Translations under genes and position numbers: made by a program | Assembly (NCBI GenBank): GCA_964019135.1 | Contig: OZ025248.1 | Coordinates: forward strand, 10,795,574-10,859,573 | Reading direction: 5' to 3' | Length of the DNA stretch: 64,000 nt | Origin: Arenicola marina | Lineage: Eukaryota > Annelida > Polychaeta > Arenicolidae | Shown here: in pieces, positions 3,840-38,400 of the stretch | Layout: each line of letters starts with the position of its first letter | Position numbering within the stretch: position 1 is the stretch's first letter | The notes under the pieces: generated by a model | Told to the model about the DNA's origin: nothing | What the model saw: only the letters and a program-made list of their open reading frames with translations | The model's database searches: none

Positions 3840-4127
3840 CCGGTAGCGGCTCCCCCGGGGTGCCCCGACTATAATGGCCGTTCCCGAAGTGCAGTCGGTG
3901 GGCTAGAGCGCTCGCATTGAGTGTTCTGGTCACCTGAGAGCCTAACGGCACGTGGATCGGTGGTTCGAGCCCTGCTGTGGCCATGTCTGTGTGGTCGCAA
4001 GATAAAGATCCCATGTCTTTCTTCGTAAAGAGTAGGGGTTACCCCGGGGAACATGGCTCCACTCTTCCCTCCCATTGACGCGGTATACGTGGTTAAAGCG
4101 TCCTGAATATATAACCAACCAACCCGA
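3840..4127 (+). mobile_element. SINE-like element, copy 1
   Basis: tRNA-like B box ggttcgagccc at 3963, with an A-box-like gggctagagcgctcg about 60 bases before it. Then comes a body with gataaagatcccatgtcttt, a 3' domain (gagtaggggttacccc, cccattgacgcg) and a tail of aacc repeats. The same body and tail recur at 35.4 kb; the 3' domain alone recurs at 44.4 and 49.3 kb. The 5' edge is uncertain. Confidence 0.75.
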
Positions 4128-4746: not shown

Positions 4747-4747
4747 T

Positions 4748-5070
4748 GATGTAGCATACTTATAAAGAGCTCAGTATTATGTAGCATACTTATAAAAAGC
4801 TCAGTATTTTGTAGCATACTTATAAAGACTTCAGTATGATGTAGCATGCTTATGAAGAGCTCAGTATTTTGTAGCATACTTATAAAGACTTCAGTATGAT
4901 GTAGCATACATATAAAGAGCTCAGTATTATGCAGCATACTTATAAAGAGCTCAGTATTATGTAGCATACTTATAAAGAGTTCAGTATGATGTAGCATGCT
5001 TATAAAGAGTTCAGTATGATGTAGCATGCTTATGAAGAGCTCAGTATGATGTAGCATACTTATGAAGAAT
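4748..5070 (+). repeat. 30-base minisatellite, about 11 copies
   Basis: Unit gtagcatacttataaagagc plus tcagtatgat, exact 30-base spacing (4751, 4781 and onward). It abuts the end of the MITE-like element and may have grown from its flank. Confidence 0.93.
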
Positions 5071-5271: not shown

Positions 5272-5419
5272 CTGATTAGGCCTGAAGAGATGACCAACCC
5301 CAAGATAGACGAGCTCAGCATGATGACCTACCTGTCTCAGTTCCCCAACGCCAAGCTGAAGCCAGGCGCTCCCCTGCGCCCCAAGACCAACCCCGCTAGG
5401 GTCAGGGCCTACGGTCCCG
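5272..5419 (+). CDS. filamin exon w1: end of CH2, linker, start of repeat 1
   Basis: Acceptor ctatag and donor gtaagt; ends in phase 1. Encodes [20 protein letters not shown] and then [10 protein letters not shown], the invariant filamin sequence leaving the second calponin-homology domain, followed by RAYGPG, the first strand of repeat 1. The upstream actin-binding exons are outside the window. Confidence 0.96.
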
Positions 5420-8400: not shown

Positions 8401-11400
8401 TGTATGTATTTGGGGCTCGCATCATCTCAAATGGAAATATGACAAAGTGCTTAGCTCATCTACAGATATAATTAATAATTCCATATTGCTGTTATCACAT
8501 GCTAAGATTAAGCATACAATCTCTAAAGACTACACGATCTTCGCCGTATTTCCTTATTACATATTACACTTATTACCTTATCTCCCATTTCCCCAGACCA
8601 CCAGTGGTTTATCCTCCCATCTTATTGCCCACGAGTTCTTTGACCCAATGTACTATTCCTTTTACTATGCACACAGTGCCATTTACAATGCGACCATCCT
8701 GTGTCTCCAGACGCCGGTGTGGGTGTGGTGGACGTGGCCGTTCTGGATCCGGCCGGACACAAGGACACCATTCGCCCCATCGTCAGCAAGAAGTCCGACG
8801 AGCTGTGGTACGTGGAGTACACCGCCAAGGTGGAGGGTCTCCACTCGGTCAACGTCTTCTACGCCGGCAAGGCCATCCCACTCAGCCCCTTCGGTGTGGC
8901 TGTGTCTCCTGGTAAGTGGTCTGTCCATTCTTAGCCTGGGAAACCCAGCCACCCAACCCAACCCCGGCCCCGCCCACCCCCTCCAGCCCATTCGGCCATT
9001 CAGACAGCCCTGTCAGTGGTAGTACAAACCCGGGCTCTCTCACCGACAACCCCACCCACCTCTTGGCCTTATGAACAGTTGGTTGAATTACTAGCTGGGA
9101 AGTAACTATGATGCCGTAAGCTTAAACTGTCCTCCGCTCTTACCCTGTCCTCGCTTAACTTTTCGCTTTCGGGTTTTGACGTTTAATTGATCTGAAAAAG
9201 ACCTGCTCTGCTGATGGTTATGTAATGATATTATGTGACTTAACATTAGTCGATCAAGATAATGCAATATAGACCCCCCCCCCCCCCCCCAAAAGTAAAC
9301 CTGCTGTGAATTTCCGGTGGATTGAAAATGTATCAGTTAATTGGTGATCTGAGGATCTACGACATCTGGCTATACGTGTCGTTTTAACATGTAGCGTGTG
9401 GGTGCAAGTCGTGGCGGCAATCTGAAGACATAGAATATACAGAACATACGAGAAAGTCTCGTGTACCGAGTTTAAAACGGGTAGTCTGTCCAGGAGTGTT
9501 CGAATGCGTGAACAAATGTGTGTGTGTTCCTTTGCTTCTCACCTTCTTTCTTCTCTTTCGTATCTCTTTATAATTGCACTATTTAATTGTCGATGACATT
9601 GTTTTCGTCTGGCAGAGGGCAAGCAGCTGGACCCATCGAGTAAGTTGAAGCCACGTGGCTTCTCCCGCATGCGTGGCTGTGACGAGAACCTCGTTTTGCA
9701 GTGATCGATATCATATTATAGCCCACCCGGTTTCTTTTTCATAACATCCCACGCCGTTTGATTGCCTTGGAAACCGTTGTTGCCAAAGTAACCTTCCAGC
9801 CTTGTGCAGTGTCTCTGTTCTTCATTTCGAATGCCGAGGACTATGTCTCTCCGTGACCGGAGCTCGTTGCCTGGCCAACCGTTCTATTGCAGGTGTCGTT
9901 TGATAGCATCTCCTTGTTGTCGTCTACAATATGTGTCCTTGCAGGCATGTTGACGTGTTGTGCATACAGTAAGAGGAAAAAGAATAATGACACCTCCACG
10001 GTGCATTATAGGTTGTCATGTGCGACAGATTTTAAATTAAACGTTGCTACCATATCCTTTTTTATTTCGTTTTTCAGACTAACCAACTGTATGTTTAGTA
10101 TTTGCTTAAATCTTGCCACTATGTTCTGTTGAAATGAAACCTTTTCATTTTGCGTTTGCATGTAGTTTTTGTTGATGAGCATGATGCCGGGGTTTGAATG
10201 TAGGTGTTATTTCAGCCGTCTGTTTGCTGTGTGTCGCATAAGTCATGTCAATTTACCAGCGACGCCCTGAAATGTATAGACTCCATAAGTGTGGTGTGTT
10301 ATGCAGCGGAGAGGGGGCATTCAGCATGGTATGTGGTAAGCTCGTCGAACTCGCATTGGGGTCAACATCAGTGTTAAATTAACTTAATTAACACCGAACC
10401 AACCTGTAAAGTTGATCAAGGAATATTTTTAAAGATACAGTGCTGTATATGAGATAACAAGTTTCAAGTAACGCTTCTCATTCTAAGACGTTACATGAAG
10501 GGAAGATAATAAAAAAAATGCATCGCTTTCAAGACCTCGTTAAACTTATTTTTGTTACTTAGATATGCTATTATGTTATAGATAGCGCCTAACGGCTAGC
10601 CGTGTAATTAATTCTCGAATAAATACGGCACGCATAACATTATACGACTTCCTTTACGTAATATTTCAGAGCTGCCCAAAGCACAGCCAGCTAAACCTGG
10701 TAAGCTGTTAACTATTTATAAATATGATGCGTTCTGTGAAAGTGAAATATAGTTTCGTTCAACGCTGCATTTAAGTTTAATTGCTACTTATTTACGTTTT
10801 AACGTTTGAGGCAATTCCACGTGTTCCTATTGTAAATAGATGTTTACGCTTTTGAAGTTAAATGCGATATTTCATCGTCGATGTAAAGCAAAAGATTTAG
10901 ATATTATTTGTCTTTATGATTTACAGTCGAAGCCGCAAGAGCCTCCCAGGCACCTCGTAAGTACAATTTCATTCTAACCGTCATTGATTATATATGAGTG
11001 ACAATATTGGCGTATTACGTATGGACTGGAATTCTACAAGCGCCGAGTGCCCTTTAAAGCCGTAACTGTATTAGTTTAAATTCATGTCCTGCTGCGCGGA
11101 AAGGAAAGCAGGTAGGTAGCTTCTTTTCGTCCGCTTCATTGACATATATAAATACCATTGTATCCGTATGGTCTTTATGTAAATAGTGACCTATATCACG
11201 GTATAATTGCTCACGTGATCGTCTACGCTTTTTCTGTATTTTTTCCATTCTCCCCAATTGTTATTATTACTACCTGTTATGTTTACAATAATATTTATGT
11301 ATTCGTTGGTAATAGTTTATAAATATGGTGTTTATTGGTATATAAATATATATTTATGCCGTGAAGAATATTGTTATTGTACCGTTCATTTACATCTCTG

Positions 11401-14400
11401 ATGATATAACACTTCATTAACCCCGTGAGTTTGCAAGACGTAAGACCCCTCTAGATAGCCTTTTAGGATAACGACACGATATTTTTTTGCCTTTATGTCT
11501 ACATGCAAACTGACCGTCGGTTCAGTACAAAACGCACAGTTCCCGATATTTTATATCGTAGCAGATATTATTAGAGCACTTGTTGATGCCCGTTTTGGCT
11601 TCGCAATGGTGTTGCAAACTACGGGGTCGTCCACACAGCCCTTGTTCTCATCCCCCGTGCCCAGTCATTCATCAGACCTTCCTTGGGCAGTGCGCCTAGC
11701 ATGGCGACTTCGTGTTCAGCATGAAGCATAACTCGCCTTAGCAAAAGCTTCCTAGCTTTTGTTTATATATTTTTTATTTATTTATTTGACTTATTCCGCA
11801 CCTAATACCTCTGTATTGTTGACTTTTAGTCGCACCATATTATTATTACTTTCTTTTCGTCTGTTTGTTTATGAAAAAACACACAATATTTTCACACCGA
11901 CATCTGCTTTTGTTGATCACGTTCCTTAACACTCTATGTATTTATTTCATTTTGTTTGCCATGTGATTTTGAATTTTTCTTTTCCGTAACTTCTTATAGC
12001 CCCACGAGGGGGAGTACCGTTTGCTCCTGACCAGTATATTCAGCGTAAGTAGATGACATGTTTGCTGTTGCTGTTGTTCTTGATTGTGAACGTAGTAGGG
12101 AGTCACATATTGGTGAACACATTGTATAGATCCATGGGATCGGTTCGCCAGTCTCCCCCTCCCCCCCTTTGCTCCTACTTGGGCGCCAGGTGGCGTACCT
12201 CCCAACACTGCATGTGTGACATTAGACGGTCGGATAGTCCACGGCGTTTGTAAAGGCCGCCGACAGAGGCTCTGATGATTGGAAGTCCAGACGGGACGGA
12301 ATTTCTTCTTAGATAGTTGAGATTGAGAGTTTTTGTTTAAACCTCGTCTTGTTTTCCGTGAAGTGTTGCTGAAGGCTTTTTGCTGTTGCGTAGCCTTTTG
12401 ATCTCTTGGTTAGGAAATGGTCCATGTCCATTCCTGTTTTCATAGTCAGTTTCTGATTCAACTCCCGTGGGAGATAGGGGTATTTTAATTATGAGTTTAA
12501 AAAGCAAAGGGTAGGAGATGGGCCAAGTGATGACTAAAAGAATGCGAGGAATATGAAGATTGGGGGTTTGCGGGCTTTGCAGTGAGAGGAGAATGGGAGG
12601 GCACGCTGAGACTGATGATAGTCAGGAAGATTGGGGGTGGGCAGGCTGGGGAGTGAGAGGAGAATGGGAGGGCACGCTGAGACTGATAATAGTCATAGGA
12701 AGATTGGGGGTGGGCGGGCTGGGGAGTGAGAGGAGAATGGGAGGGCACGCTGAGACTGATAATAGTCATAGGAAGATTGGGGGTGAGCGGGCTGGGGAGT
12801 GAGAGGAGACAGGGAGGGCACGCTGAGACTGATAATAGTCATAGAAAGATTGGGGGTGGGCGGGCTGGGCAGTGAGAGGAGAATGGGAGGGCACGCTGAG
12901 ACTGATAATAGTCATAGGAAGATTGGGGGTGGGCGGGCTGGGCAGTGAGAGGAGAATGGGAGGGCACGCTGAGACTGATAATAGTCATAGAAAGATTGGG
13001 GGTGGGCGGGCTGGGCAGTGAGAGGAGAATGGGAGGGCACGCTGAGACTGATAATAGTCATAGAAAGATTGGGGGTGGGCGGGCTGGGCAGTGAGAGGAG
13101 AATGGGAGGGCACGCTGAGACTGATAATAGTCATAGGAAGATTGGGGGTGAGCGGGCTGGGGAGTGAGAGGAGAATGGGAGGGCACGCTGAGACTGATAA
13201 TAGTCATAGAAAGATTGGGGGTGGGCGGGCTGGGCAGTGAGAGGAGAATGGGAGGGCACGCTGAGACTGATAATAGTCATAGGAAGATTGGGGGTGAGCG
13301 GGCTGGGGAGTGAGAGGAGAATGGGAGGGCATGCTGAGACTGATAATAGTTATGTTACAGAGATATCTTTCGTATAAATTTATTTAGTAAGGACTTTTGT
13401 GGTATCAACAAAGACTCGGAGAGTTTATACGACTTTCTAATGTCGTCTTCAATTAGATGCCGGATAGCTGAAAGAACCGGAGAACCTTATTTTCTTTGAT
13501 CTCTGACAAATAGAACAATTCTTAACTACTTGAGGAATTAGGCGGACCCTGCTTTCTTAATTCGAGATAAAGGAGCATCTTTGGTTTTTTTACCCTTTCT
13601 TCGTGAACTTGCAATTGTGGCAAGCGTTGATAGTGGTTTGGGGTGATTTTAATTAGAAGAGCCCCACTTACGACGCTATGCCTTGACGATGGCGACGCTA
13701 TGCCTTGACGATGGCGACGCTATGCCTTGACGATGGCATAGCGCTCATCTCCCATGTTGGCGTGTGCCACGTCTGGACACAGATGGCTCTTTCTGTATAC
13801 TGTTATATGTGTAGAGAGGTGTTCTGTGGGATGCTTCCGTGATTAGTAGTCAAGCCTGATGCCATTTTGGTGTGAACGTAGAACTTATTTGTTGCGCCAT
13901 TTAAGGAAGAGACCGAGTCAGATATACAAGGCCAGCCGTAATATTCCGGAGTGGCAGAGCGCATGGAGGTTTAACGCACAACAGATTTATAGGGATTCAG
14001 TAGCATAAACTGCACTTATTGGCTGAGGACAGCGCATGGTCATTATCTGCGCATACAATACAATTTAATAAAAGTATAGAGCTTTAGATATTGCTGGGCA
14101 GTTGCTTTTTCGAGGTTTAAGCTAAAAAGCTACTGAACTGCAAAGATTTCATAATTTTTTTTTTTTTAGAAGCGCTCGTAGATTATCTCATTCTTAGTTA
14201 GCTGGTTGTGTTGGTTTATTAGTGATTCATGTAGACGCCGATTTTGCTTCTGTGTAATGAAACAAGCCTCTTGTTTTACTCGTTGTCAGCCAAAGCTGCA
14301 CCACAGCGTAAGTGTTCGGTGTCACTAACCCCTTGTCGTCTGCTTCTGTGTGACGTATGCGTGTTTGTCTGTCTCTGTGTCTGTATTGGCTGTCCAGTGG

Positions 14401-17400
14401 CGGGAAACCGCCACAGGAGGCCTGCCCCTCTCACCCTCCTCCAACAAGGCTTCACATCTTACATAACATTGGCCTATATACAATACTTTGCTCTAATGAA
14501 ATCAGTCCTCTTTAATAACTCTTGGATGTGTTGTCTCTTATCAATCATTTGCCAATTATTTGGCCCAAATAATAGTAATATTTATATTTTGTCTCTTGTG
14601 TTTTAGTAACCAATTTAACAACATGGCAAAATGCTTCTTTTGATTTCAATATATTTGAAAAACATTTTCCTTGGATAACTTTTAACCAATCACTTTATTT
14701 GCTATTTTCTGACCGGACTAATCATTTCTATATACCCAAATGGTGATATATTTATAACTGAAGTTAATAACAATATTTTGTAACTGGCTAATATTTTTAT
14801 TTCAAAATAATTATTTTACAAAATCCAAATTACCCTCCTTGCTGCCCATCAAAGTAATCTTCCAGTGTCCACAAATGGCTTTAAAATATTGGTGGAATTC
14901 TATCGGAAACTAACGCTTGTTATTCTGTCTATGTTGTTGTGGATTGTCATCTTTGTTTGTCGTTGTGTGTCATTGTTGGTTCGCGGAGGTAAACTAAGCA
15001 AACATTTGACAGTGTGGTGGAAAGAGTCACGCAAAAAAACTGCATTTTTTGCATTTTACGTTCGGTCTCTAAGGTATATTAAACATACCGGCCTTCAATA
15101 TATATTAATCGTAACCCCGTCTTGAGTGAACCTATCAGCGTACACCGCGTAGGATAGCTAAAGACTGGACATGTTGTCAAGCTGAAGCGTCTACGCACTC
15201 TTAAAGAATCAGCCACCCTCTCCCCCCTATTGCGTGGTGTCTCAAGCGACTGACTTTCCTATTTGCTTATTTGCCTCTGTGGACGCTCTGAGCTTATCAT
15301 AACGCTCCCCTATATACCAAAATGGACAACCAGATGCCTTGAATGATCACTATAACTGCCATTCACACCATTACACCATTTATAACACCGCACATTTAAG
15401 ACCATTGCAGAGCGTCGCTGATAGCATAAAACATAAAACGGTTGATCGTCTCACCAAACGGTACCGTTTTTTATATTTTTGTTTTTTTTAAATGATATTA
15501 TTTCGCTGACATATTTTGTTGTAGCTTTGTTAACTCTTCTTCGGGTGCAATAAAGTCGTTTCTCTTGCCGGATCCTGTTTTTCTGTTGTTGATACCCAAT
15601 CTTGATAATGAAGCACCTTATTTGACTGGACGACTTGCTGGCTTTGCTCTTTGCCTGGGATTTGATGATCGTCTCTCGGTTTCCTTATGTGAGGTATCCC
15701 TGTTCTTTTTGTTGGTTGTCTGGAAGCTTGGACGAGAGCGTGTGCACCTGTCTGTCTATGTCACAGCGAACTTTTATCATAGTTCGCTCAGCGGGGAGTC
15801 GAGACCAATAACATTTTGCACTGAATGCGCATGTGTGGGCCTGACTTCCGGTGTTATATTCCGGGGATCTTATTGTTTTGTTTTGGTTTTTGCGCAGCGC
15901 CATGCCGTCACGTGACAATTGATACCTCACCTCGTATTGCCATTGTTATTAATGAATGGATCGTTCCTTAACGAGCTCTGGCCGTCTTTCCTCACCCAGG
16001 CGGAAGCGCCCTTTGCCTCTTTCCTCTCTTTAAACACTGAGATTGAATGCACTTGTTCGACGCGCATCGAATTCTAACACTATTGTTTTGACTTTACAAA
16101 ACACGTGTTATCATATTCTCTTTGCTTGGCGATGACTTCCTCTTGTCCTGTTGTTCGCTGGAGCCCTTGGACTCTGCGCTCTATCATGTCCTACTCACGG
16201 TCCATTATACACTTGTACCCAATCCCGACTCCGTCCTTTCACCTCTTGTTATTGTGCCTTTCATTTATTGATCACCATGTATACAGTTGCACCATGCTGC
16301 ACCGCAGTTCAGCATGGTGCAAGCATTAGCCGGGTGCATCCCCTCACCCCCACATTTTCCCCAGACGTTCATACCCCCTCCAGTCATCCAGTCTCCGCGT
16401 AACCTTTTTGCTTGTGTTTCCAATCCCGTGCCCAGTCGCGTACACTGTGTTTGATTCTTCTCTTCCCCACTAGCGGTCATATACGCTCCTCTGCCCAAGA
16501 GAGCTGCCGGGCCTGAGCCGAAAAAAGCCGAACCTAAAGGTAAAAGGCCGCCACCTAAAAAAATGGGCCCGAAGCCTTCTGGTAAAAAGGAGCTTCCCCT
16601 TATTAAAACGCTTAAGCCGGGCGAGAAACTGCCCGGCGCCACCGATGCTAAGAAGGCCTATGCTGAAGGCCGGGGCATTCTGCCCAAGGGTCTACGCGTC
16701 GACGACGACGCGGATTTCAACGTCTTCACCAAGGACGCCGGCAAGGGTGAGGTCAAGTGCAAGGTCATTGCCCCGGGCGGTAAGGACGAGAAGGTGACGG
16801 TGACCAAGGTGGACGAGATCACGTACCTGTGCATGTACAAGCCCAAGAAGGCTGGCAATTACGTGGTCAATGTCACGTACGGCGCCAAGGAAATCCGGGA
16901 CGCGCCCTTCAGGGTGGAGGTGTTGGCCGGCCTCGACATGTCCAAATGTTCGGCCACGGGTCGCGGCCTCCAGCCCACAGGGGTCCGCGTCCTGGAGAAC
17001 GCCAACTTCCAAGTGTTCACCAAGGGAGCCGGCGACGGCGAGCTGGAGGTCAAGGTCACCGGGCCGGACGACAAGGACGTGGAATGCGCTGTGGCCAATC
17101 TGGACCAATGGAGCTACGAGTGCTACTACAAGCCCCCCAAGCCCGGCATGTACACAGTCACCATCCGTTTCGGCGGGAAAGAGATCCCCAAGTCCCCGTT
17201 CAAGGTGGAGGTGTCTGAGGTGGACGCCAAGAAGGTTTATGCCCAGGGCCGTGGCATAGAGCCCAAGGGGTTGCAGGTCAACGACGACGCCGACTTCAAG
17301 GTGTTCACCCAGGAGGCCGGCCCCGGCGAGCTCAAGGTGCAAGTGGCTGGGCCCAACCGCTCCGAGGAGAAGGTTACCATTAAGAAGTTCGATGAGTGGA

Positions 17401-20400
17401 CCTACGACTGCGTCTACGTTCCGAAGAAGCCCGGAAACTACGTGGTGACCATCACGTACAACAGCAAGCCCATCAAGAATTCGCCCTTCAAGGTGGAAGT
17501 GACCAAGGCCATTAAGCTGGAAAAGGTCACGGCCAAGGGACGCGGTATCGAACCCACGGGCGTCCGCGTCGGTGAGGACGCCGACTTCAAGGTCTTCACC
17601 AAGGAGGCCGGCGAAGGAGAGGTCAAGGTTCAAGTGACGGGCCCGGGCCGCATTGACGAGAAGGTCACAGTCAAGAAGGTCATCCGCGACCAGTTTACGT
17701 TCGACTGCCTGTACAAGCCGAAGAAGGCTGGCGAGTATATCGTCAATGTCACTTTCGCAGGCAAGGTCATCCCCAAGTCCCCTTTCAAGGTCCAGGTTCT
17801 GGCGCCCGTTGATGTCCGCAAGGTCACGGCCAAGGGTCCCGGCATCGAGCCTAAGGGCGTCCGCGTCGGCGAGGATGCCGACTTCAAGGTCTTCACGAAG
17901 GACGCCGGCGACGGTGACCTGAAGGTCACGGTCACCGGCCCCGGGAAGGTCGTGGAGGAGATCGTGATCACGTCGGTGGACACGACCACTTACCTGTGCG
18001 TGTACAAGCCCAAGAAACCTGGCCAGTACATCGTGACCATCACCTACGGCGGTCAGGCCATCCCGAGGTCTCCGTTCAAGTCGGAAGTAACGTTAGCGGT
18101 GTCCGCGCTGAAGGCCACGGCGAGCGGCCCCGGCGTGGAGCCCCAAGGATTGGTGGTCAACCAGGATGCCCCCTTCAAGGTCAATACCAAGGACGCCGGA
18201 GAGGCGGAGCTCACGGTCACCATCATGGGTCCTGACAAGAAGCCAGAGAAAGTCACTGTGAAGAAGACGGATCAGCTGAATTGGGATTGCGTCTACAAGC
18301 CCCAAAAGCCGGGCCAGTATGTCGTGGATGTCCTTTACGGAACCCAGCCAATCAAGAACGCTCCTTTCAAGGTCATGGTCAAGTTGGATTCCCAAAAGGT
18401 CACCGCCACTGGACGCGGCGTGGAGCCTGAGGGAGTCGTCGTTAACGAGGACGCACCTTTCAAGGTCCATACCAAGGACGCCGGCGAAGGTGAACTCAAG
18501 GTTAAGGTCACTTCCCCTGATAAGAAGGAAGAGAAAGTTACCACCAAGAAGGCGGACCAATTCACTTACGACTGTGTGTACAAGCCGCAGAAACCCGGAC
18601 AGTATGTGGTCGATGTCACATACGCCGGACAACCCATCAAGAACTCCCCTTTCAAGGTCATGGTCAAGCTAAACGCGCAAAAGGTCACGGCCACTGGACG
18701 TGGCGTGGAGCCGGAAGGCGTCGTTGTGAACGAGGATGCTCCTTTCAAGGTCTTCACCAAGGAAGCTGGTGAAGGTGAACTGAAGGTCAAAGTTATTTCA
18801 CCCGACAAGAAGGAAGAGAAAGTTACGATAAAGAAAAGCGAGCAGTTCACGTACGACTGTGTGTACAAGCCGCAGAAACCCGGACAGTATGTGGTCGATG
18901 TCACCTACGCCGGACAACCCATCAAGAACTCCCCTTTCAAGGTCATGGTCAAGCTCGACGCTCAAAAGGTCACGGCCACAGGACGTGGTGTTGAACCGGA
19001 AGGAGTTATCGCCAAGCAGGATGCCCCATTTCAGGTACACACCAAGGATGCCGGAGAGGGGGAACTCAAGATCAAGATTATTTCGCCCGACAAAAAGGAA
19101 GAAAAGGTCACTATCAAGAAAACAGACCAATTTAAGTACGACTGCGTCTATAAGCCCGAGAAGCCCGGACAGTATGTCGTTGATATTTCGTATGCCGGAC
19201 AACCCATCAAAAATTCGCCTTTCAAGGTCATGGTCAAGATGGCCACAGATTCCCAGAAGGTCACTGCCACTGGGCGCGGCGTGGAGCCGGAGGGCGTGGT
19301 CGTGAACGAGGACGCTCCCTTCCAGATTCACACCAAGGACGCCGGAGAAGGAGACGTGGTGGTGAAACTTGTAGGTCCCGATAACAAGGAAGAACCGGTA
19401 ACTGTCAAGAAAACTGACCAGTTCACTTACGACTGTGTCTACAAACCCGAGAAACCAGGTCAGTACGTGGTTGCCATTTCGTACGCTGGACAACCTATCA
19501 AGAATTCACCTTTCAAGGTCATGGTCAAGATGGCGTTCAACCCGCAGAAGGCGGTCGCTTCCGGTCCTGGAGTGGAACCCAAGGGCGTCGTGGTCAACCA
19601 GGACGCTCCCTTCAAGGTTGACACCAAGGACGCTGGGGTCAGCGAGCTCAAGGTCAAGGTGACCGGTCCAGATAATAAGGAAGAGCCGGTCGATGTGAAA
19701 AAACCAGACCAGTTTACGTACGACTGCGTCTACAAACCCACCAAGCCCGGCCCCTATGTGGTGGATGTTCAATATGGCGACCAGCCCATCAAAAACTCCC
19801 CTTTCAAGGTCCAGGTCAATATGACCTTGGATACGCAAAAAGCCGTGGCGAGTGGACCCGGCGTGGAGCCCAAGGGCGTCGTGGTCAATCAACCGGCTCC
19901 TTTCAAGGTCGACACTAAGGAGGCCGGAGTCGAGGAGCTGAAGGTCAAGGTGACGGGGCCGGACAACTCGGATGTGCCGGTGACGATGAAGAAGCCGGAC
20001 GACGCGACGTTCGAGTGCGTGTACCAGCCTACCAAGGCGGGACCCCACGTGGTCGACGTGCAGTACGGGAACAAGCCCATCAAGGACGCGCCCTTCAAGG
20101 TCCAGATCCAGCTTCCGGTGGAGGCCCAGAAGGCCGTGGCGAGCGGCCGCGGCATCGAGCCGGAAGGCGTGGTGGCGGGCGAGGACGCGCCCTTCAAGGT
20201 GGACACCACGGAGGCCGGGGACAGCACCCTGGTGACCAGGGTGGTCGGTCCCGATAACAAGGAAGTCAAGCTGGACGTCAAGCGGCCGGACCAATTCACC
20301 TACGACTGTTCCTACAAACCCGAGAAGCCGGGCCAGTACACCGTCTACGCGACCTACGGCAACCGCCCAATCAAGAGCTCCCCCTTCAAGGTCAGAGTCC

Positions 20401-23400
20401 AGCCCGCCAAGGTCGATGCTCAGAAGTGCACTGCGAGCGGCCCGGGGGTGCAGCCCGAGGGCGTGGTGGCCAACCAGGACGCGCCCTTCACGGTCGACAC
20501 CAAGGACGCCGGCGGCGTCAGCGACCTCAAGGTCAAGGTCACTGGTCCGGATAACAAGGAGGAACCCGTGGTCGTTAAAAAGCCGAGTCCGGATACGTTT
20601 GCTTGCGTGTACAAGCCGGAGAAGCCTGGTCCCCACACGGTGGAGGTGACCTACGGCGACCAGCCGATCAAGAATTCCCCTTTCAAGGTGCAGGTGAAGC
20701 CAGCGCAGCCCATAACCGAGGAGCCTGTGACTGGAGTGAAGGCTCAGCCCGCACAGTTCGCTCCCGCCGATCAGTTGGACAGAGCTCGTAAGTGATCCAC
20801 TGAAGCGATATGACTCTGGCTCAGGGACTAGCGAACGAACACGACGCGAAATAACCCAGCTTCATCGACTGGACTAAACCCGGCCATTCGATACGCTCTA
20901 TACCCATCAAATATTGATCAAGTGCAGTGTAGGCCTCGTATGCTCCATCAGGTCACATAGGCTGCGTAAGGCTGACCCTATACCCCCTATGCAGTCGCAT
21001 AGTTTCATATCCTTCTTTCGTCTTTTGCAGCTTTAAAAAGGTCCAGTACCTTAGTTTCAGAGGCAGAACACAGTTCGGCGGTATATATCAGCGCAGGTTA
21101 ACCCGTGGAGCCCCATTATTCCATATATTAAATACCCATGTTTGGCAAGGTGGCGGCACCAACATTTAGGTTCGACTTGTATTCATTTGCGCGTATGCGT
21201 TATGTTTTCTTTCTGTTCATTCAGATTATAATATATATTTCTTAAATGGTATGCAATATTTATATTGACCCTACGGGCAACGGAAGAGAATGCTGCGTTT
21301 GGTTTCTATGACGGCAAAGTCGCGCATGCGCGTCGCATTCTCAAATGTGTGCCCTCTTGTGGGTTTCGTTTTTTTCTCTCATAGTGCTTGCTCACCTTGT
21401 CAACATATTCCGTACATTTGCTTGTAGGAAACCCCTTGTTTGTGAGGTTTGATCCCCTTTCTATAGGTCGTTCTGTCGTCTTGCCTTCATGTTCCCATCA
21501 TATTCACACTCCCCCTCTGATGGTCCTTTAGCCACGCAGCCTTGTGACTTTATGTAGCTTGAAGGGCTTAGCGTACACGTGGAAATTATTCTTTTCCTGG
21601 AGAGTTTTGTCAATCAATCGTTGTTCTGACCTGAGCCAGTGTTTATTGCTGTCGAACCTGCCAAATGCCTGTCTTTGTTCATAAGTACATTAGTCGTTAG
21701 AATGTCGCCATTATCGAGAAATCTGCCACACGAGATATAATACAGAATTATTATAACAGTGAAAAGGAATCACATGGTGTCGTGCTTTTGCGTTGCATTC
21801 AATTTTGTGATTTCTTTGGTGTTTATTTTCGTTGACAATCTTACCTACAATCTGTGTTTTTCGTTTTGAAACTGTCTTACAAATGTCGTTATGTATCAGG
21901 TGAGTTGATTTCAGAGGACACCTTGTGTCATTGGTATACCACAGAGCTCTGCAATGGTCTTACTGCGTCCCCCTGTCACGAATCACAACATACACTGATA
22001 TATATATACGTATATATCAACAACTACACAACAAAAAACAACAATACCAAACGAACTTATTATGTAAGTTCAAGACTCAATATCTTCTCTCATGCGTTTA
22101 GACATCTGGTTGTCCACTTTGTGCTTTGAGCCTTGTTATGCTTGCCTAATACATATTTATCCGTATTATATTTTATTTCTTCGTTTAATAAACATATATT
22201 TGATTGCATAAGCACTAAATAAGAAATACGAAATAACAAAGAAAACTGCTGAATATGATAACATTATTTTTTTGTAATATAATATTGTGAAATATTTTGA
22301 TATACTTTTCATTCTTTGTCTTATTTATTACAATAACCATTCCTAGGGCGTAACGTAAATAGAGAGATAAATAGAGTGAGAGGTTTTCAATCTGTCTGGA
22401 TGCAAACACGATGCAGATAAATTAGTTTACAATATATACATTTTAATAGGAGTCCGAGCCACATTCCTCAATAATGTATTTAATGTTGTATCGTTACGGA
22501 CTACAGAACCGATGGGAGCGCCACCTATGAAGAAGCCTCGTAAGTATATTCGCATTCCAACATGAAGAGTGATTTGTACTTATCGTGTAGACATTTTAAG
22601 AATGTGTTGACAAATTGTTTTGATTACTTGCAGAAGAAGTTCTCATTTTGTTCCATTTTTTGTAGACAACGACTTGTACTGGCAGACTTCTTTATGATGA
22701 TGCGTTTTTCTTGAATGTCTTCATCTTTGCTTACATTGAGTGACTGACGTGCGTGCGTGTGAGTGTGTGTGGAGCGTTACCGAACTACCCTTGTAATGAT
22801 ATTAGCTAAATGGGTGGTATACTATTTATTGTGGGCAGTGTCCAGATTAATAGCAGCGTCAACCTGTGGGCAGGTTAATAGTGAATGAGGGGGCCTTGCT
22901 GAAAGACCGGCTGAATAATGTGCGGTAGAGCTATCCCGCCTCTTTATAAACCGTCATATATCACTGATATTCCCTTCCGAAAATGATATATTATAAAAGC
23001 GGAAGCAAAGCATGCGGTTTGTTCGCAATAATAACATAAGAACAGTACCATTAATATTCTTGTTTTCTTCCCTCCTCCCCCACTTCCCACAACCTTTGCG
23101 CACCCCCACCCACTTCCCCCCACCCTCCTCCTCCTCACCGTCACAGCCGTGGACGCCAAGAAGTGCTACGCTACGGGCCGCGGCATCCAGCCCAAGGGAG
23201 TCCGTGTCGGGGACGACGCCGACTTCAAGGTGCACACGAAGGGCGCCGGCGAGGGTGACCTCAAGGTGCAGGTCATCGGGCCCGGCGGCGTGGAGGAGCG
23301 GGTCATCGTGCGCAAGGTCGACCAGTGGTCCTACGAGTGCGTCTACAAGCCCACCAAGCCCGGAAACTACGTCGTCAACGTTATGTACACCGGCCAGCAC

Positions 23401-26400
23401 ATCACCAAGTCGCCCTTCAAGGTCGAGGTCGGACCCTTCAAGACGTCCAAGATCCGGGCATTCGGTCCCGGGCTGGACGGCGGCGTGGTCGGGTACCCCG
23501 CCAACTTCACCGTGGAGACTAACGGAGAGACCGGCGCGCTCGGTGGGTGGCGACTTCACACGCTAGATACTTAGAGAGTTATGCAGATATGTGGCCCAGT
23601 TTAGTATTCTTATAGAATTATGCAGATGTGGCCCAGTTTATTATTCTTATAGAGTTATGCAGATGTGGCCCAGTTTAGCATTCTTATAGAGTTATGCAGA
23701 TGTGGCCCAGCTTAGCATTCTTGTGCAAAATAGAACAGAAACGTCCAATACTTCAACTAAAAGGAAATAATCGACAGTCTCTGTAGGCGATTGTGAAGAA
23801 CGTATATGTTATATGGGTATTGAATACAAACCATAGTTTTTAGGAGGTTGTAAATACATGAGCTATCGAATTGATATTGAGTTTACATGATTTAATTGCG
23901 TGCTGGAAATTAGCTCTTTAGTGCTACACATATATAAACGGAAATAATGAACTAATGTAGGACAGCGCGCCTGTATGGGTTCCTGACCTATTGACCGTTG
24001 ACCTGCAGGCTTCTCCATCGAGGGTCCGTCCCAGGCTAAGATCGACTGCAAGGATAACGGCGACGGGTCTGCTGACATCTCGTACTGGCCCACCATGCCC
24101 GGCGAGTACGCCGTCCACATCCTGTGTAACGATGAGGACATCCCCAAGTCGCCCTATATGGCCGAAATCCAGCCCAGCACGGACGCCTTCGACCCCACCA
24201 AGGTACGTCATATATATATATATATATATATATATAGCTAGAGATAGATAGAGGGAAAAATAATATAGTTAATGGAGTATTTTCTGTCAATTTGAGCTGG
24301 TGTTTATATATTCTGGTGTCATCAAGTATACATATATAGTTAGATTTGTCTTTCATTTTGTACGAAATCGTTATATTTATGCATGTATCACGTAGCATAT
24401 GATATAAGTCACTTAAGAAAAAGGTACGTGCTATATATATATAGAGAGAGAGAACCCACCCTAAACCGAACCCTGAGTCAACCGTCAATATCCACCTTTT
24501 CCCAGGTCTCAAGTTTTTACTACGAAAATATCGCTCTGTCCGAAGCATTCGTTTTATAGAGCTTCTGATGTGACATGCGTCCGCTAGGTGCCGCTAGCAG
24601 TCTTCTGGACTAGTGTGTGGCTCATGATGTGTAGAGCGCTCTGGTTGGGGCATATCTGCCAATGGAGTATCGTAACCACAATTGAATTAAAAAATTAATA
24701 ACATACTTTTAACTTACCCCATAGATCAATACACAAGCCTGGTCTAAAAACCGAATTTTTTTTGAGGACGCACTTAAAACCATATGCTATGATGATAGCC
24801 GAGGCACGCCCCTCATCCCCTCCCTCCCTCCCTGCCTCCCTCAGGTGGTGGCCTCGGGGCCTGGCCTGGAGAAGACCGGCGTGGTGGTCAACAAGTGGGC
24901 CGAGTTCACGGTCGACGCGCGCCGTGGCGGCCGCGCCCCGTTGCACATCGCCGCCCTGGACGCCGACTACAACCCCGTGGACGTCGTCATCAACGACAAC
25001 AAGGACGGCACCTACCGCTGCCGATACATGCCCAAGACGCCCGTCAAACACACGGTCGTCATCTCCTACGGCGGCGTCAACATCCCCAACAGCCCCTACA
25101 GGGTACGTGTCCGTGTGTGTGTGTGTGTCCGCGCTGGCTGGCGTTAGTTGTGTAACACGGGTTGTATATTGGCGTATAGCGTTGATGCTGGGATGTAGTG
25201 TTGTTATCGTGATGCTGTTTCGGGATTGGTTGGTCAATCCAGAAATGTTTGATATCGTTGTGTGATGTGGAATATCTAACGTAGTTTTTTATATAGAAAA
25301 TATGAATTGATCGTATCGTGTCGGATGGAGGTCATTGCGTTGGCAAGTACAATTTTTCGGTACTGGGTGTTATACGTAGTCTGTAAAATGTTACATGAAC
25401 ACGAATGAAGAAAGAATATGAAGAAACTACAGCAATGTAAAAATCGCTTGATTTGAATGACAGATATTGTGAACGGTGTTTCCATGATGTCCTGCTTTCA
25501 CCCCCAGGTACCCGTCCAAGAGGCCAGTAACCCTGCCAACGTGCGTGTGTTCGGCCCGGCGGTGGAGGGGCCCGTGAAGACCTTCCAGCCCACCTATCTC
25601 ATTGTGGACTGCTCTCAGGCCGGACCAGGTCAGTCCCAGTCGCAGCCTCTGCACCTCATCATGTAAAAGACACACCGTCATTGTTGTGTCAATATAGTTC
25701 AAAAGGTTTGAGATTGCGAACTTGTTTTTTATCGCCATTCTATATACTTTTACCGAACTATATGCACTTTGAATAAAATATGTGAAACGTGACTCACGAA
25801 GCTACGCATCAAACCCGGCCTGAATCGGTCGTTGGCCCTAGTATAGCATTGCTGCACACAACATTCGCCTGATACTAACACCAACCCTCTCCCCCGCAGG
25901 TGACGTGGCCATCGCGCTGACCAATGAACGCGGTCTGGACGTGCCCGTCAGGACCACCGACAACCAGAACAACACCTTCAAGATCGACTTCGAACCCCCG
26001 ACCGTCGGTTTGTACAACTGCAGCGTCTTCTTCGCCGACCAGGAGATTCCCAGCTCGCCCTACAAGATCAACGTCGAGCCCAGCATCGACGTCAGCAAGG
26101 TGCAAGTCCTGGGCCTGGACGACAGTAAGTTACCACTCCTTCCGGCTATAAGTTACCGCACCATGCGTCACGATGTGGTTCGAGGTGGTCCGTGGTGGCC
26201 GGGCTGTCTGGTCTATGGATGGGTGAAGAGGTCGCTGCTCTTAGCCGGGACGACTTGGTGTTGGGTTACATATTACATGTTGGAGATATCACCTTGTTTT
26301 ATATTATGTCGATTTTTAAGAATAATGCGTTTGGCTTCAAGAAATTCAAGAAAGTGAAGAGACCTTAGGATTATACACGTTAAGTAAATACAAGTCTACA

Positions 26401-32400: not shown

Positions 32401-35400
32401 TTTCTATTGCATTCACAATGCATCGACTCGCTTTGAGGGGGTAATTTATGTCCGTATAACCTGGTATCTTGTGTCTTTGATGCATGCTGCGTATTAGTAA
32501 TTACTGGCTCAGATCTATCTGGCGAGGGACATTCTCACTGTAGACTATCAAATAGAAGGGCAGCATGGCATCAGGTAAATGTTATTGCCGGATAATGCTC
32601 AACTCATGACTTAATCTTCTTCAAATATTGTCAACAATGGTGCATTTCACATATTTATACCTATATGGCTGTGGTGGCAAGGATTAACGTCATCTGAAGG
32701 GCTGTAGTAATGCCACGGGCATGCCGCATATTCCACTTTCATATCATATGTCTCGTCATTCAGTCGATATCTATATATATACGTAGTCCTATAGCTGGCA
32801 TGTCACCACCTATATGTGTGGTGTGTATCCACGTGTACACGTCTATCCTATGTGGAGGTCTCCTGTCAGTCGCATGCTGTACACTGTCCCGTGTCAGTTC
32901 ACGATCACACTATCCCCGCTGGAATAACTCTGGCGACCGTGCTGGGGGTCGGCACAACACGTGGTCTGTCTGGGCACAACACGTGGTCTGTCTGGGCACG
33001 ACACGTGGTCTGTCTGGGCACGACACGTGGTCTGTGTGCACAACACGTGGTCTGTCTGCACGACACGTGGTCTGTCTGGGCACAACACGTGGTCTGTCTG
33101 TGCACGACACGTGGTCTGTCTGGGCGCAACACGTGGTCTGTCTGTGCACAACACGTGGTCTGTCTGGGCACAACACGTTGTCTGTCTGGGCACAACACGT
33201 GGTCTGTCTGGGCACAACACGTGGTCTGTCTGGGCACAACACGTGGTCTGCCTCAGTATATCACGTGGTCTGTCCCGGTATATCACGTGGCATGCCCCCG
33301 GTGTACCACGTGATCCGCCTCTGGTATGTCACGTGATCCCCAGCCTGGTCAGCCTTAACATATCACTTGGTCCTTTCCGTCCTAAAGTAATATTCCCCAC
33401 TCCCCCACATCCCTCTCCATTGATACACCATCAGACACCCATTGAGGTCTCGGTACACCCCATTGGGTTGTGGTCTGCCGTCCTTGCAGTGATGATAATA
33501 ACCCTATACATACACACTCCGGTCACCGTGCTTATTACCATCACAATTCAGGACGCTCCCAACGCTAATTATGTATGCAAAGATACATAAACTCGAAAAC
33601 ATATGTATATAGATATCTAATTATGTATGCGAAGATAATCAACTCGAAAACATCATATGTATATATATCTGATATATAACATATGATACAGAACATGATA
33701 AATACATGTTATACATTCTGGGTAAATTGCGGTAAAGTCGCTTACACTCCACGAAGGAATTAAGAGAGTGAAGTTTTATTATAATATGATGCGTGCAGTG
33801 GGAAGTACTCCAGGGAAGGCATATCGGGGGCTCTCTCCAGAGGCTGGGTGAAGGATCCAGAGGTTTGGTGAAGACTTCAGAGGCCAGCTTCATAGGCTAG
33901 GTGAAGGCTCCAGAGGCTGGCTCTTCAGGCTAAGAGCCTGGGTGAAGGCTCTAGAGGCTGGCTATTGAGGCTAAGAGGCTGGGTGAAGGCTCTAGAGGCT
34001 GGCTATTGAGGCTAAGAGGCTGGGTGAAGGCACCAGAGGCTGGCTCATGTTGTTGGGTGAAGGCTCTAGAGGCTGGCTATTGAGGCTAAGAGGCTGGGTG
34101 AAGGCTCCAGAGGCTGGCTCATGTTGTTGGGTGAAGGCTCCAGAGGCTGGCTCATGTTGTTGGGTGAAGGCTCCAGAGGCTGGCTCATGTTGTTGGGTGA
34201 AGGCTCCAGAGGCTGGCTCTTCAGGCTAAGAGCCTGGGTGAAGGCTCTAGAGGCTGGCTATTGAGGCTAAGAGGCTGGGTGAAGGCTCTAGAGGCTGGCT
34301 ATTGAGGCTAAGAGGCTGGGTGAAGGCTCCAGAGGCTGGCTCATGTTGTTGGGTGAAGGCTCTAGAGGCTGGCTATTGAGGCTAAGAGGCTGGGTGAAGG
34401 CTCTAGAGGCTGGCTCTTCAGGCTAAGAGCCTGGGTGAAGGCTCTAGAGGCTGGCTATTGAGGCTAAGAGGCTGGGTGAAGGCTCTAGAGGCTGGCTATT
34501 GAGGCTAAGAGGCTGGGTGAAGGCTCCAGAGGCTGGCTCATGTTGTTGGGTGAAGGCTCTAGAGGCTGGCTATTGAGGCTAAGAGGCTGGGTGAAGGCTC
34601 TAGAGGCTGGCTATTGAGGCTAAGAGGCTGGGTGAAGGCTCCAGAGGCTGGCTCATGTTGTTGGGTGAAGGCTCTAGAGGCTGGCTATTGAGGCTAAGAG
34701 GCTGGGTGAAGGCTCTAGAGGCTGGCTATTGAGGCTAAGAGGCTGGGTGAAGGCTCCAGAGGCTGGCTCATGTTGTTGGGTGAAGGCTCCAGAGGCTGGC
34801 TCATGTTGTTGGGTGAAGGCTCCAGAGGCTGGATCCTGAAGCTAGCGGAAGGCATATCAGGAGCTGTCTGATGGAGGGGCCTGTTTCTCCTCAGATGTGT
34901 TTATCTCATTGGCTTCACCCGAGTTATGCATTACGTTCCCGCTGATTGGGTTGATGGCTGGAGGCTGTGTGGGGTGCCGCTGGTTGGGTTGATGGCTGGA
35001 GGCTGTGTGGGGTGCCGCTGGTTGGGTTGATGGCTGGAGGCTGTGTGGGGTGCCGCTGGTTGGGTTGATGGCTGGAGGCTGTGTGGGGTGCCGCTGGTTG
35101 GGTTGATGGCTGGAGGCTGTGTGGGGTGCCGCTGGTTGGGTTGATGGCTGGAGGCTGTGTGGGGTGCCGCTGGTTGGGTTGATGGCTGGAGGCTGTGTGG
35201 GGTGCCGCTGGTTGGGTTGATGGCTGGAGGCTGTGTGGGGTGCCGCTGGTTCGCTCTGGCACACCGATATCGGACGTCAGGTCTCAGTACAAAACTCTGA
35301 ACCTTAAAGTTTGCACGTTGTGCGCTATTTATATCCCGCTGAACGGCCGTGCGAATACGTCTGCAGCTCGTTCTCTGTTTCCACGTCTCACTGTTCTGGT

Positions 35401-38400
35401 TAAGTGTTTGCCGCTGTATTCCGGAATCTGGTATGGGGCCTAACGGCACGTGGATCGATGGTTCGAGCCGGGCTGTGGCCATGTCTGCGTGGTCGCAGGA
35501 TAAAGATCCCATGTCTTTCTTCGCAAAGAGTAGAGGGTTACCCCCAGAGACATTGCTCCACTCTCCCTTCCTTCTCCCATTGACGCGATATGACCAAAAG
35601 TGGTTAAAGCGTCATGAAGAACAAACCAACTTAAAGTCTGGTGTATCCTGTTGCTCCATGGCACGCCCGCCTGGTTACAACGATAGAGCGGTCCAAGTCG
35701 AATCCCATGCTGCGCAGTTGTCTGCCTGTTTCTGTCCAAACATGCCCCGGTATATCACATGGGTTCGCAAAGGTAGCCTGAAACACTAATTCTTCATCAT
35801 CATCGGTCAAAAGTAAGGTTTGCAGGTGGCGTTACCGGAAGTAAGATCTTACTCACTGAACTGATCGATGGATCAGTCCGAGGGATGTATATGGTGAACC
35901 GCTTTGATGTTGACAGTGGAATAGATACAGTAGGGGACAATAGGGGATACATCTAGAACGAGAAGTCAGCGTGTTGATGTCTGACTTGTCCTTGCGAGGA
36001 ATGTGCTCCCCATCTTTTGCCCGTCTTCCAGCAGATAATAATAGATGGAGGGATGATTTGTGGGCTTCCGTGGAAACCTATTTTAAATCGGTGACGTAAG
36101 AAGACGTGGGCGGGGTACGGTGTGTGGGGGGGTGGGGGGTGTAATGTTGCAATGCGGCCTGAGGAACAGGAGGGCGGAGTGGAGGAGTTGCTGGATGGAA
36201 ACTACAGGGTGTGGAGGCGGTCAGTGGTATGGCATTCACCATGACTGCCACCTTAGCAATGAGGAACTATGGGTTAAAAGTGGGTGCCCTTTAGCATAGA
36301 TCAGTTGATCGACCATTTAAACTTAGGTATGCATGAGCACATAGGGTGCGTCTAGCCTACGTCGGAGCGGGGTGGGGTGGGGGGGGGGCATGTGGGGTAT
36401 TATGGCAGCGCTACCTAAGAGTTTGGTGTTGCGTCGAGGGGGGTGGGGGGTGGGGGCAGGTATCAATTGCGGTTGATGCCAAGTTAATAGTAGCTGTTGG
36501 GTATAGAAAGTGGGGCGCTTTCCACAGCATTACATCACATCATTCAGTAGTTTTTTGGGGGTTATCGGCAAGGCTGTCTGATCCTTGTTGGGCGTGGAGG
36601 GGGGGGGGGGGTGGCTGTAGCGTGGGAAAGTAGGCAGAATGGGGAGGGGATCGGGAGACGAATCGGTGGGGGTGGTGGGGGGTGGGCGGGAGGGTACTAG
36701 TCTTTTTACCAAATAGCGATCTGGTAAAGCGCCAACCTTCGGCAACATTCTGGAATGCCCGGTAGAGCAGATCACCCTTGGCACCCCCCCCCCCCCCCGT
36801 CGTTCCATCACCCGCCCTCGCCCACCTTGTCTGGCCTCTCTCTGGCGTCGAGGCTAGAGATCCCCCCCCCTTCCCCTCTTTGTCTGCAGACACGGTGCCA
36901 TTATTCTTAAAGCGGAGCGGCAGCCTCCATAAAGATTCACTTGTCTGGATTCCCTTTGGCGGTCGGCACAGTTCCTTCCCGCAGACCCTTGGCGGAGTTT
37001 GACTTGGATTGCTTCTCGGGTTGGATGCCAATGGCTTACGTGTGGTTCTTGTGAAGAAAAGGTGTGTCGCGGTACTTTGGATATCTCATCATATTACCAA
37101 GAGTTTCGGTGCTGAAGCGAAGGAGATCAAACCAGCGAAGGTCCTAGGAATATTGTAAGGTTTTGACAAGATGCCTTCCGCCACTATGGATATTGAGGTC
37201 AAGCCGAAAGACTCTTCTTCATGGTAATTATGATTCGACATATTCTTCTCAGCTCTAGGAATTTGAAAGACGGTTTCCAAACTGGATACAATCTTGGCTG
37301 CACTTTGCGTGTTATTAAGGAAGGGATAAGTATATCCTGTGAGCATGAATAACTTCTGAAATTGATCGACGTAGTTTTAAAAAGAATCATTTTGCATTGA
37401 CATTGGAAAGGTAGAACATTTTCTCGGCATATTCTGCTAACGTAAAGATTTGTGATTTTTCTGATTCCGTCTCGCTGGTGAGTGGTCATAATCTTTGTTT
37501 GATGGGTCGGTATCTCATGCGATGGTGTTCAATGTCCACATGTGCTCTCACAGGACGAGCTCTAAAACAGTTACCCAGAAAACCATCACTAGAAAACATT
37601 GGACGAACAAAACTGTCGAGGTGAACGTATACGATGGCGCGGGAAACCTCAAGTGGGGAGACTCGCAGCGAATCACCATCACGGTAAATGCGCTGGCGAG
37701 TGGTGCCATCTAGCGGGCCATGTGGCGGATGTGGGGCGCATGAGATTCGTGCGTAGAGATAGTCGCGGAATTTGTGTGCGATGGATGGAGGTGAGATAGA
37801 TGTGCTCAATCAGCTTCTATCGGTAGAGACGTCGGCAGTTCGCTATGGCAGTAGTACATGGGCATTATGTGGCATTATGTGGCTAGTTTATTGTGGTCTA
37901 GGAATCTTGAATTCCAGTCGACGACGGCGGCAGCTGCGGGGAAAGGGAATGTCAGATGCTTTGCATGTCGATCAAAACCTGCAGAACCGCTGGATGGAAA
38001 CGCAGGACGAGTGTGGCTTCGCTTCAGTTTCTCCATCTGTTGGTCGCTTTCCGAAATATCAAAGAAATGTGATACGTTAGTGTTCAAATTAGCATAATTT
38101 ATCGCAGTTTACCCAGAAATAAAACAGACCTCTTAAAAGTACTTTTAAATGACCTTTAAAATAATTTTAGGCCGTAGTAAATATGTACAGCAGTGATTTA
38201 TTCGGGTTGTGGATAGAGATTAGAACATTAGGTATCAGTACTAAAGGTGTGTTTAAAACAGTGTTGATACTTTTTGGTTAAAAAAATACTTTTCTCAGAA
38301 GGATTACCTAACCTATGCGCTTTGATAGAAGGAAAATAAGGGTTCTGCCAACATTTCTTTCCATATGTCAGTGGCTTGAAGTTGCTTGCTATTTGCCATC

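Follow-up and report, generated by a model that had tools for sequence, protein, structure and literature searches.

A filamin gene of Arenicola marina with a possibly optional block of 14 additional repeats in its first rod

Background

The arm length and flexibility of filamins bear on the stiffness of actin networks and on force sensing. A leech muscle antigen of about 400 kDa was reportedly described by Venkitaramani in 2004. Leech filamin has 35 repeats and has been linked to muscle development (PMC3081291). Repeat number varies substantially among invertebrate filamins (PMC7714767), and the set of 18 filamins compiled by Light et al. 2012 ranges from 5 to 36 domains, with lineage-specific repeat expansions in Hirudo and Trichoplax; the Hirudo expansion is ascribed mainly to single-domain duplications (all as cited in PMC8275333). 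Here we describe a filamin gene of the polychaete Arenicola marina in which seven exons, one of them 4,314 nucleotides (nt) long, lie between canonical repeats 2 and 3 and would add 14 repeats to the first rod. The gene was found on a 64,000 nt stretch of contig OZ025248.1 (assembly GCA_964019135.1, positions 10,795,574 to 10,859,573 of the forward strand). This whole stretch is called the window, and all coordinates below are positions within it.

Four described systems come closest. Leech (Hirudo medicinalis) filamin has 35 repeats and an expansion ascribed mainly to single-domain duplications, compared with 36 repeats here, where the 14 inserted repeats and canonical repeat 3 (R3) form one clade; the passages on the Hirudo expansion give no place, exon layout or optionality, and the comparison is one of repeat number and mode of duplication. 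The fln-2 gene of C. elegans skips exons 20–36 in the pharynx and keeps them in the hypodermis, which changes the number of filamin domains (PMC6581053). It is thus a single filamin gene with a large internal block that differs by tissue, although it is one of the divergent, jitterbug-like filamins, which have three CH domains (PMC3143143), and its 17-exon block, with low-complexity parts as far as described, is unlike the single giant exon of R3 duplicates in Arenicola. Drosophila cheerio and C. elegans fln-1 are of the same class as the present gene, have about 20–22 repeats and produce size isoforms through internal starts and splicing (PMC5521747, PMC3143143), but the passages cited describe truncations and small in-frame exons and not an internal 14-repeat extension. 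In vertebrate FLNA, FLNB and FLNC there are 24 repeats, and repeat 2 is followed by repeat 3 without an intervening block.

Since the leech filamin and the Light et al. 2012 set precede it on the one side and fln-2 on the other, neither a filamin of around 36 repeats nor tissue-specific skipping of a block is new. Long filamins being already known, the point of interest here is whether the gene makes both lengths. The preliminary description of this DNA knew of no described filamin with a skippable block of 14 additional repeats. In that general form the claim does not stand beside the leech, Trichoplax and fln-2 cases as those sources present them; a narrower version may. Among the open-licence PMC matches listed, mostly judged from their listings, there was no FLNA/cheerio-class gene with a skippable block of filamin repeats, none whose giant exon of R3 duplicates is flanked by microexons, and none reported to make both lengths. 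Pattern searches of GTDB and IMG/VR contigs returned 12 and 8 matches with none confirmed by tblastn, but few animal sequences are held there and the result is uninformative on animals.

The gene and its seven-exon block

The + strand of the window carries most of one filamin gene, for which exon borders were read from the letters and tested by joining. Forty exons, the first being e1 at 5272 and the last holding the stop at 51136, combine into a single frame of 3,693 amino acids, and their internal borders carry AG and GT. A hidden Markov model (HMM) built for this analysis finds 36 filamin repeats in that product. When e6 to e12 are removed the frame stays open, giving 2,195 amino acids and 22 repeats by the same HMM. 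The estimated masses of the two modelled products are 397 and 235 kDa, or near 425 and 265 kDa once about 30 kDa is allowed for the part of the actin-binding domain that the model lacks. The candidate exon e26 was excluded from the 40-exon model as it breaks the frame; it would fit another, putative transcript that begins with e25. The exons on which the argument depends are the following.

5272..5419, + strand, e1: last part of the actin-binding domain and first part of repeat 1
8711..8911, + strand, e5: last part of canonical repeat 2; finishes in phase 1 and provides the donor for long and skipped forms alike
9616..9639, + strand, e6: candidate microexon, 24 nt, phase 1-1
10670..10699, + strand, e7: candidate microexon, 30 nt, phase 1-1
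10927..10956, + strand, e8: candidate microexon, 30 nt, phase 1-1
12000..12044, + strand, e9: candidate microexon, 45 nt, phase 1-1
14290..14307, + strand, e10: candidate microexon, 18 nt, phase 1-1
16474..20787, + strand, e11: giant exon, 4,314 nt, phase 1-1, with a Pro/Lys-rich linker, 14 filamin repeats (about 16653-20696) and the start of a second linker
22507..22539, + strand, e12: candidate microexon, 33 nt, phase 1-1
23147..23542, + strand, e13: canonical repeat 3 and start of repeat 4

Exons e6 to e12 span 9616-22539 and total 4,494 nt, or 1,498 codons. The preliminary description had placed here five microexons, a 4,314-base exon and a further microexon, all phase 1-1 and removable whole or in parts to leave 22 repeats in place of 36. 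This architecture held up on joining: AG/GT borders are present on all seven exons, e5 joins e13 in frame (w5 to w13 in the earlier numbering), every one of the 128 possible combinations of these exons leaves the frame open, and both repeat counts were recovered by the HMM. The giant exon is one open frame containing 14 stretches that match Pfam PF00630. Linkers of 111 and 46 residues flank the array of 14 repeats; their proline content is 23% and 22% and their isoelectric points are 10.2 and 8.4. Residues of e9 look by eye like those at the end of e11, and a duplicated linker was considered, but the local alignment score of 34 was equalled or exceeded by 930 of 1,000 shuffles and the similarity is one of composition only.

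The six microexons were weighed against chance by a mechanical scan for phase-1 exons of 15–60 nt. Its cut-offs were set after the six were known, so that they pass, making the scan a comparison of regions and not a blind test. In the introns of the block (9,921 nt) it returned seven candidates, namely the six microexons and a nested in-frame acceptor within e9 that would give the alternative exon 12009-12044, and all of their donors read GTAAGT or GTAAGC. Such donors were found at none of 11 candidates in the gene's remaining introns (25,042 nt) and at none of five on the minus strand of the block. This gives good, though not blind, support for the six microexons as genuine exons.

A 73-bp minisatellite with 11 copies lies at 12551-13350, in the intron between e9 and e10.

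The 49 amino acids of e1 match the C-terminal ends of Filamin-B and Filamin-A actin-binding-domain chains (best match 4b7l, E 2.7e-17), and the nine solved chains on the match list, which extends to E 1, are filamins without exception. Of the actin-binding domain, which in this class of filamins consists of two CH domains, only this C-terminal end is seen; the remainder was not found in the gene model and is probably upstream of the window. The repeats are well conserved, with 32 of the 35 inter-repeat gaps at 14 amino acids or fewer, while a gap of 51 amino acids precedes R14 (the hinge between the rods) and one of 41 precedes R22 (the linker before the last repeat). By its repeat array, inter-rod hinge and linker-separated last repeat, the predicted product is a filamin of the FLNA/cheerio class. 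Hinge 1 is encoded by e27 (38976-39029, 54 nt). In vertebrate filamins this hinge is alternatively spliced and influences flexibility (PMC4170960), and it may be spliced in the same manner here, since the frame of the model likewise remains open when e27 is omitted.

Origin of the inserted repeats

In a tree of the repeats the 14 inserted copies (I1 to I14) and canonical R3 fall in one clade with support of 97/99, the bootstrap being not fully settled. Identity of the inserted repeats to R3 is 48–63%, as against at most 46% to any other canonical repeat. Exon borders are likewise shared by absence: none interrupts any of the 14 inserted repeats or R3, whereas 19 of the 22 canonical repeats contain one, some of them near an edge. 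Because of the shared clade, we take the 14 repeats to have arisen by duplication of R3, and serial duplication within one exon is the simplest history. Insertion of a foreign exon or mobile element was also considered and is rejected, because the repeats are closest to R3 of their own gene and block DNA matches only e13 outside the block within the window, apart from the intronic minisatellite matching itself.

The best match of e11 to a solved structure is FLNA 4m9p (E 1.1e-45). That structure covers domains 3–5, which in human FLNA and FLNC form a compact module (PMC4170960). The block therefore sits immediately before the repeat 3–5 module, leaving the module whole. If the history proposed here is right, one repeat duplicated inside one exon may also explain the origin of the long leech filamin.

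Coding constraint on the block

The inserted repeats I7 to I10 differ from one another mostly at the third position of the codon, the counts at positions 1, 2 and 3 being 57, 30 and 250. The ratio of nonsynonymous to synonymous substitution rates (dN/dS) is 0.044–0.095 for six unsaturated pairs among I7 to I14, the I7–I9 pair being saturated. GC content at third codon positions is 0.76 in e11, compared with 0.75 in the coding sequence before it, 0.87 in that after it and 0.44 in an intron control. Because of this third-position bias, low dN/dS and coding-like composition, a dead or never-translated block seems unlikely, and the block is almost certainly a real coding extension.

Is the block optional?

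The preliminary description took the phase symmetry of the block as the mark of an optional cassette. We reject it as a sign of optional use because it is not specific to the block: 20 of the 31 other internal exons (a count that leaves out e1, e42, e25 and e26) are also phase 1-1. Exons e29 to e41 are 13 phase 1-1 exons in a row, and the frame stays open when all of them are removed, as it does for 485 of 500 random subsets of them. Phase 1-1 is thus the default of this gene, and frame-neutral removal is to be expected for most of its exons.

The block does differ from the rest of the gene in other properties. Of its seven exons, six measure 18–45 nt, whereas all of 33 other exons exceed 51 nt, and its introns are longer (median 1,036 against 466 nt). 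Scored with matrices derived from the rest of the gene, block acceptors average 4.5 bits against 7.8 elsewhere (p 0.028) and block donors 6.9 against 9.1 (p 0.032). A G is missing at position -1 in six of seven block donors and in only three of 32 others (p 0.0002). From these features splicing of the block could be regulated, and the block, a real rod extension, is probably in alternative use. The same gene may produce a size variant by another route. The ATG exon e25 (37171-37223) and e26 (37554-37683) join in frame to e27–e42 as an open filamin of 963 amino acids, which comprises the last nine repeats without the actin-binding domain and may point to a second promoter within the 6.7-kb intron. 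Short filamins of worm and fly that arise from internal starts resemble this form (PMC3143143, PMC5521747), and with such a start in the same gene further size variants would fit.

Several observations weigh against optional use, the phase count among them. The intronic part of the block donors is near perfect, with GTAAGT in six of seven as against six of 32 elsewhere (p 0.002), and the low donor scores are due to the exonic bases. Donors of this kind are as much a sign of efficient inclusion as of regulation, and the C at -1 can also arise where the junction divides a Pro or Gln codon. The p values for the splice scores lie near 0.03, and no correction was applied to any of the p values given here. 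Constraint is also weaker among older pairs of repeats, where dN/dS is 0.25 for I4–I5 and 0.25–0.45 for R3 against I4, I3 and I1; the median ratio of nonsynonymous to synonymous differences across all 91 insert pairs is 0.41.

We put the probability at roughly 0.55 that a first-rod extension of 14 repeats derived from R3 is included in some tissues and skipped or trimmed in others. Under this explanation a filamin of the FLNA/cheerio class would have lengthened its first rod by serial duplication of R3 inside one exon, with the extension set off by Pro/Lys-rich linkers that are partly built from the six microexons. At least one tissue would include the block to give a 36-repeat filamin, with muscle the most likely by analogy with leech filamin. 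Other tissues would join e5 to e13 or drop some of the microexons, giving 22 repeats or intermediate forms. The parts of this explanation differ in strength. That the long form is made somewhere is very probable, and alternative splicing of some part of the block is fairly likely; for skipping of the whole block, down to 22 repeats, we see even odds. More tentative, at a little short of an even bet, is the fullest version, in which one gene yields 22-repeat and 36-repeat filamins with graded intermediates through the giant exon and its six linker microexons, and splicing sets the reach of the cross-linker much as in titin.

The most substantial competitor is a block that is constitutive. The gene would then always make a 36-repeat filamin, its microexons would only encode linkers, and it would be a conventional expanded filamin such as leech has. 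The consensus donors of six block exons, the strong purifying selection among the later repeats, a phase symmetry that carries no information and the 35 repeats of leech filamin (PMC3081291) all count in its favour. The distinct size, acceptor score and -1 donor base of the block exons count against it, as do the many size variants described for the filamin genes of worm and fly (PMC3143143, PMC5521747). We regard a constitutive block as a serious possibility on which we are nonetheless doubtful.

Two further readings concern the giant exon. An in-frame TGA at 20793..20795 (+), two codons beyond the donor of e11, would stop translation upon retention of intron 11. Were that intron kept and the transcript polyadenylated, the product would carry the actin-binding domain, repeats 1 and 2 and the 14 inserted repeats without a dimerisation repeat, alongside the 22-repeat form. 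A polyadenylation-like AATAAA stands at 22187 within the intron (an ATTAAA is found at 21127), and C. elegans fln-1b is described as a truncated form that has two repeats which the full-length filamin lacks (PMC3143143). However, the donor of e11 is a consensus GTAAGT, e12 continues in frame, and the AATAAA is about 1.4 kb downstream and of a sort that is common, which makes such an isoform improbable. That e11 is instead a nested gene of its own, or a dead copy never spliced into filamin, we consider very improbable indeed. Its first Met falls at residue 30 (position 16563), a point in favour of this reading, yet there is no in-frame stop ahead of the donor, the phase matches on both sides, six candidate microexons flank it all in phase, and dN/dS among the later repeats is below 0.1.

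If optional use of the block is borne out, a gene that adds or drops about 162 kDa of rod beside the actin-binding domain would offer a natural test of how the length of a cross-linker matters. The longer form may also make actin networks softer. The repeat 3–5 module and the second rod would stay untouched when the block is added or dropped.

Other features of the window

Ten open stretches of the minus strand were tested. Three of them match Pfam PK_Tyr_Ser-Thr (54379-54621, 55234-55605 and 56213-56548), and the region 54379-56548 resembles a tyrosine kinase gene oriented towards the filamin gene. A further stretch at 57924-58142 has a weak DAG1 match below the cut-off, and the other six match nothing. 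No RNA families or tRNAs were found within the window.

Many tandem arrays other than the minisatellite of the block are present, at 610-1398, 4747-5068, 33894-34832, 58782-59953 and elsewhere; one repeats a 49-bp unit 16 times, and another a CA-rich unit of 13 bp about 90 times. Three similar stretches, at about 3940-4110, 35430-35600 and 49190-49390, resemble by eye copies of a short dispersed element.

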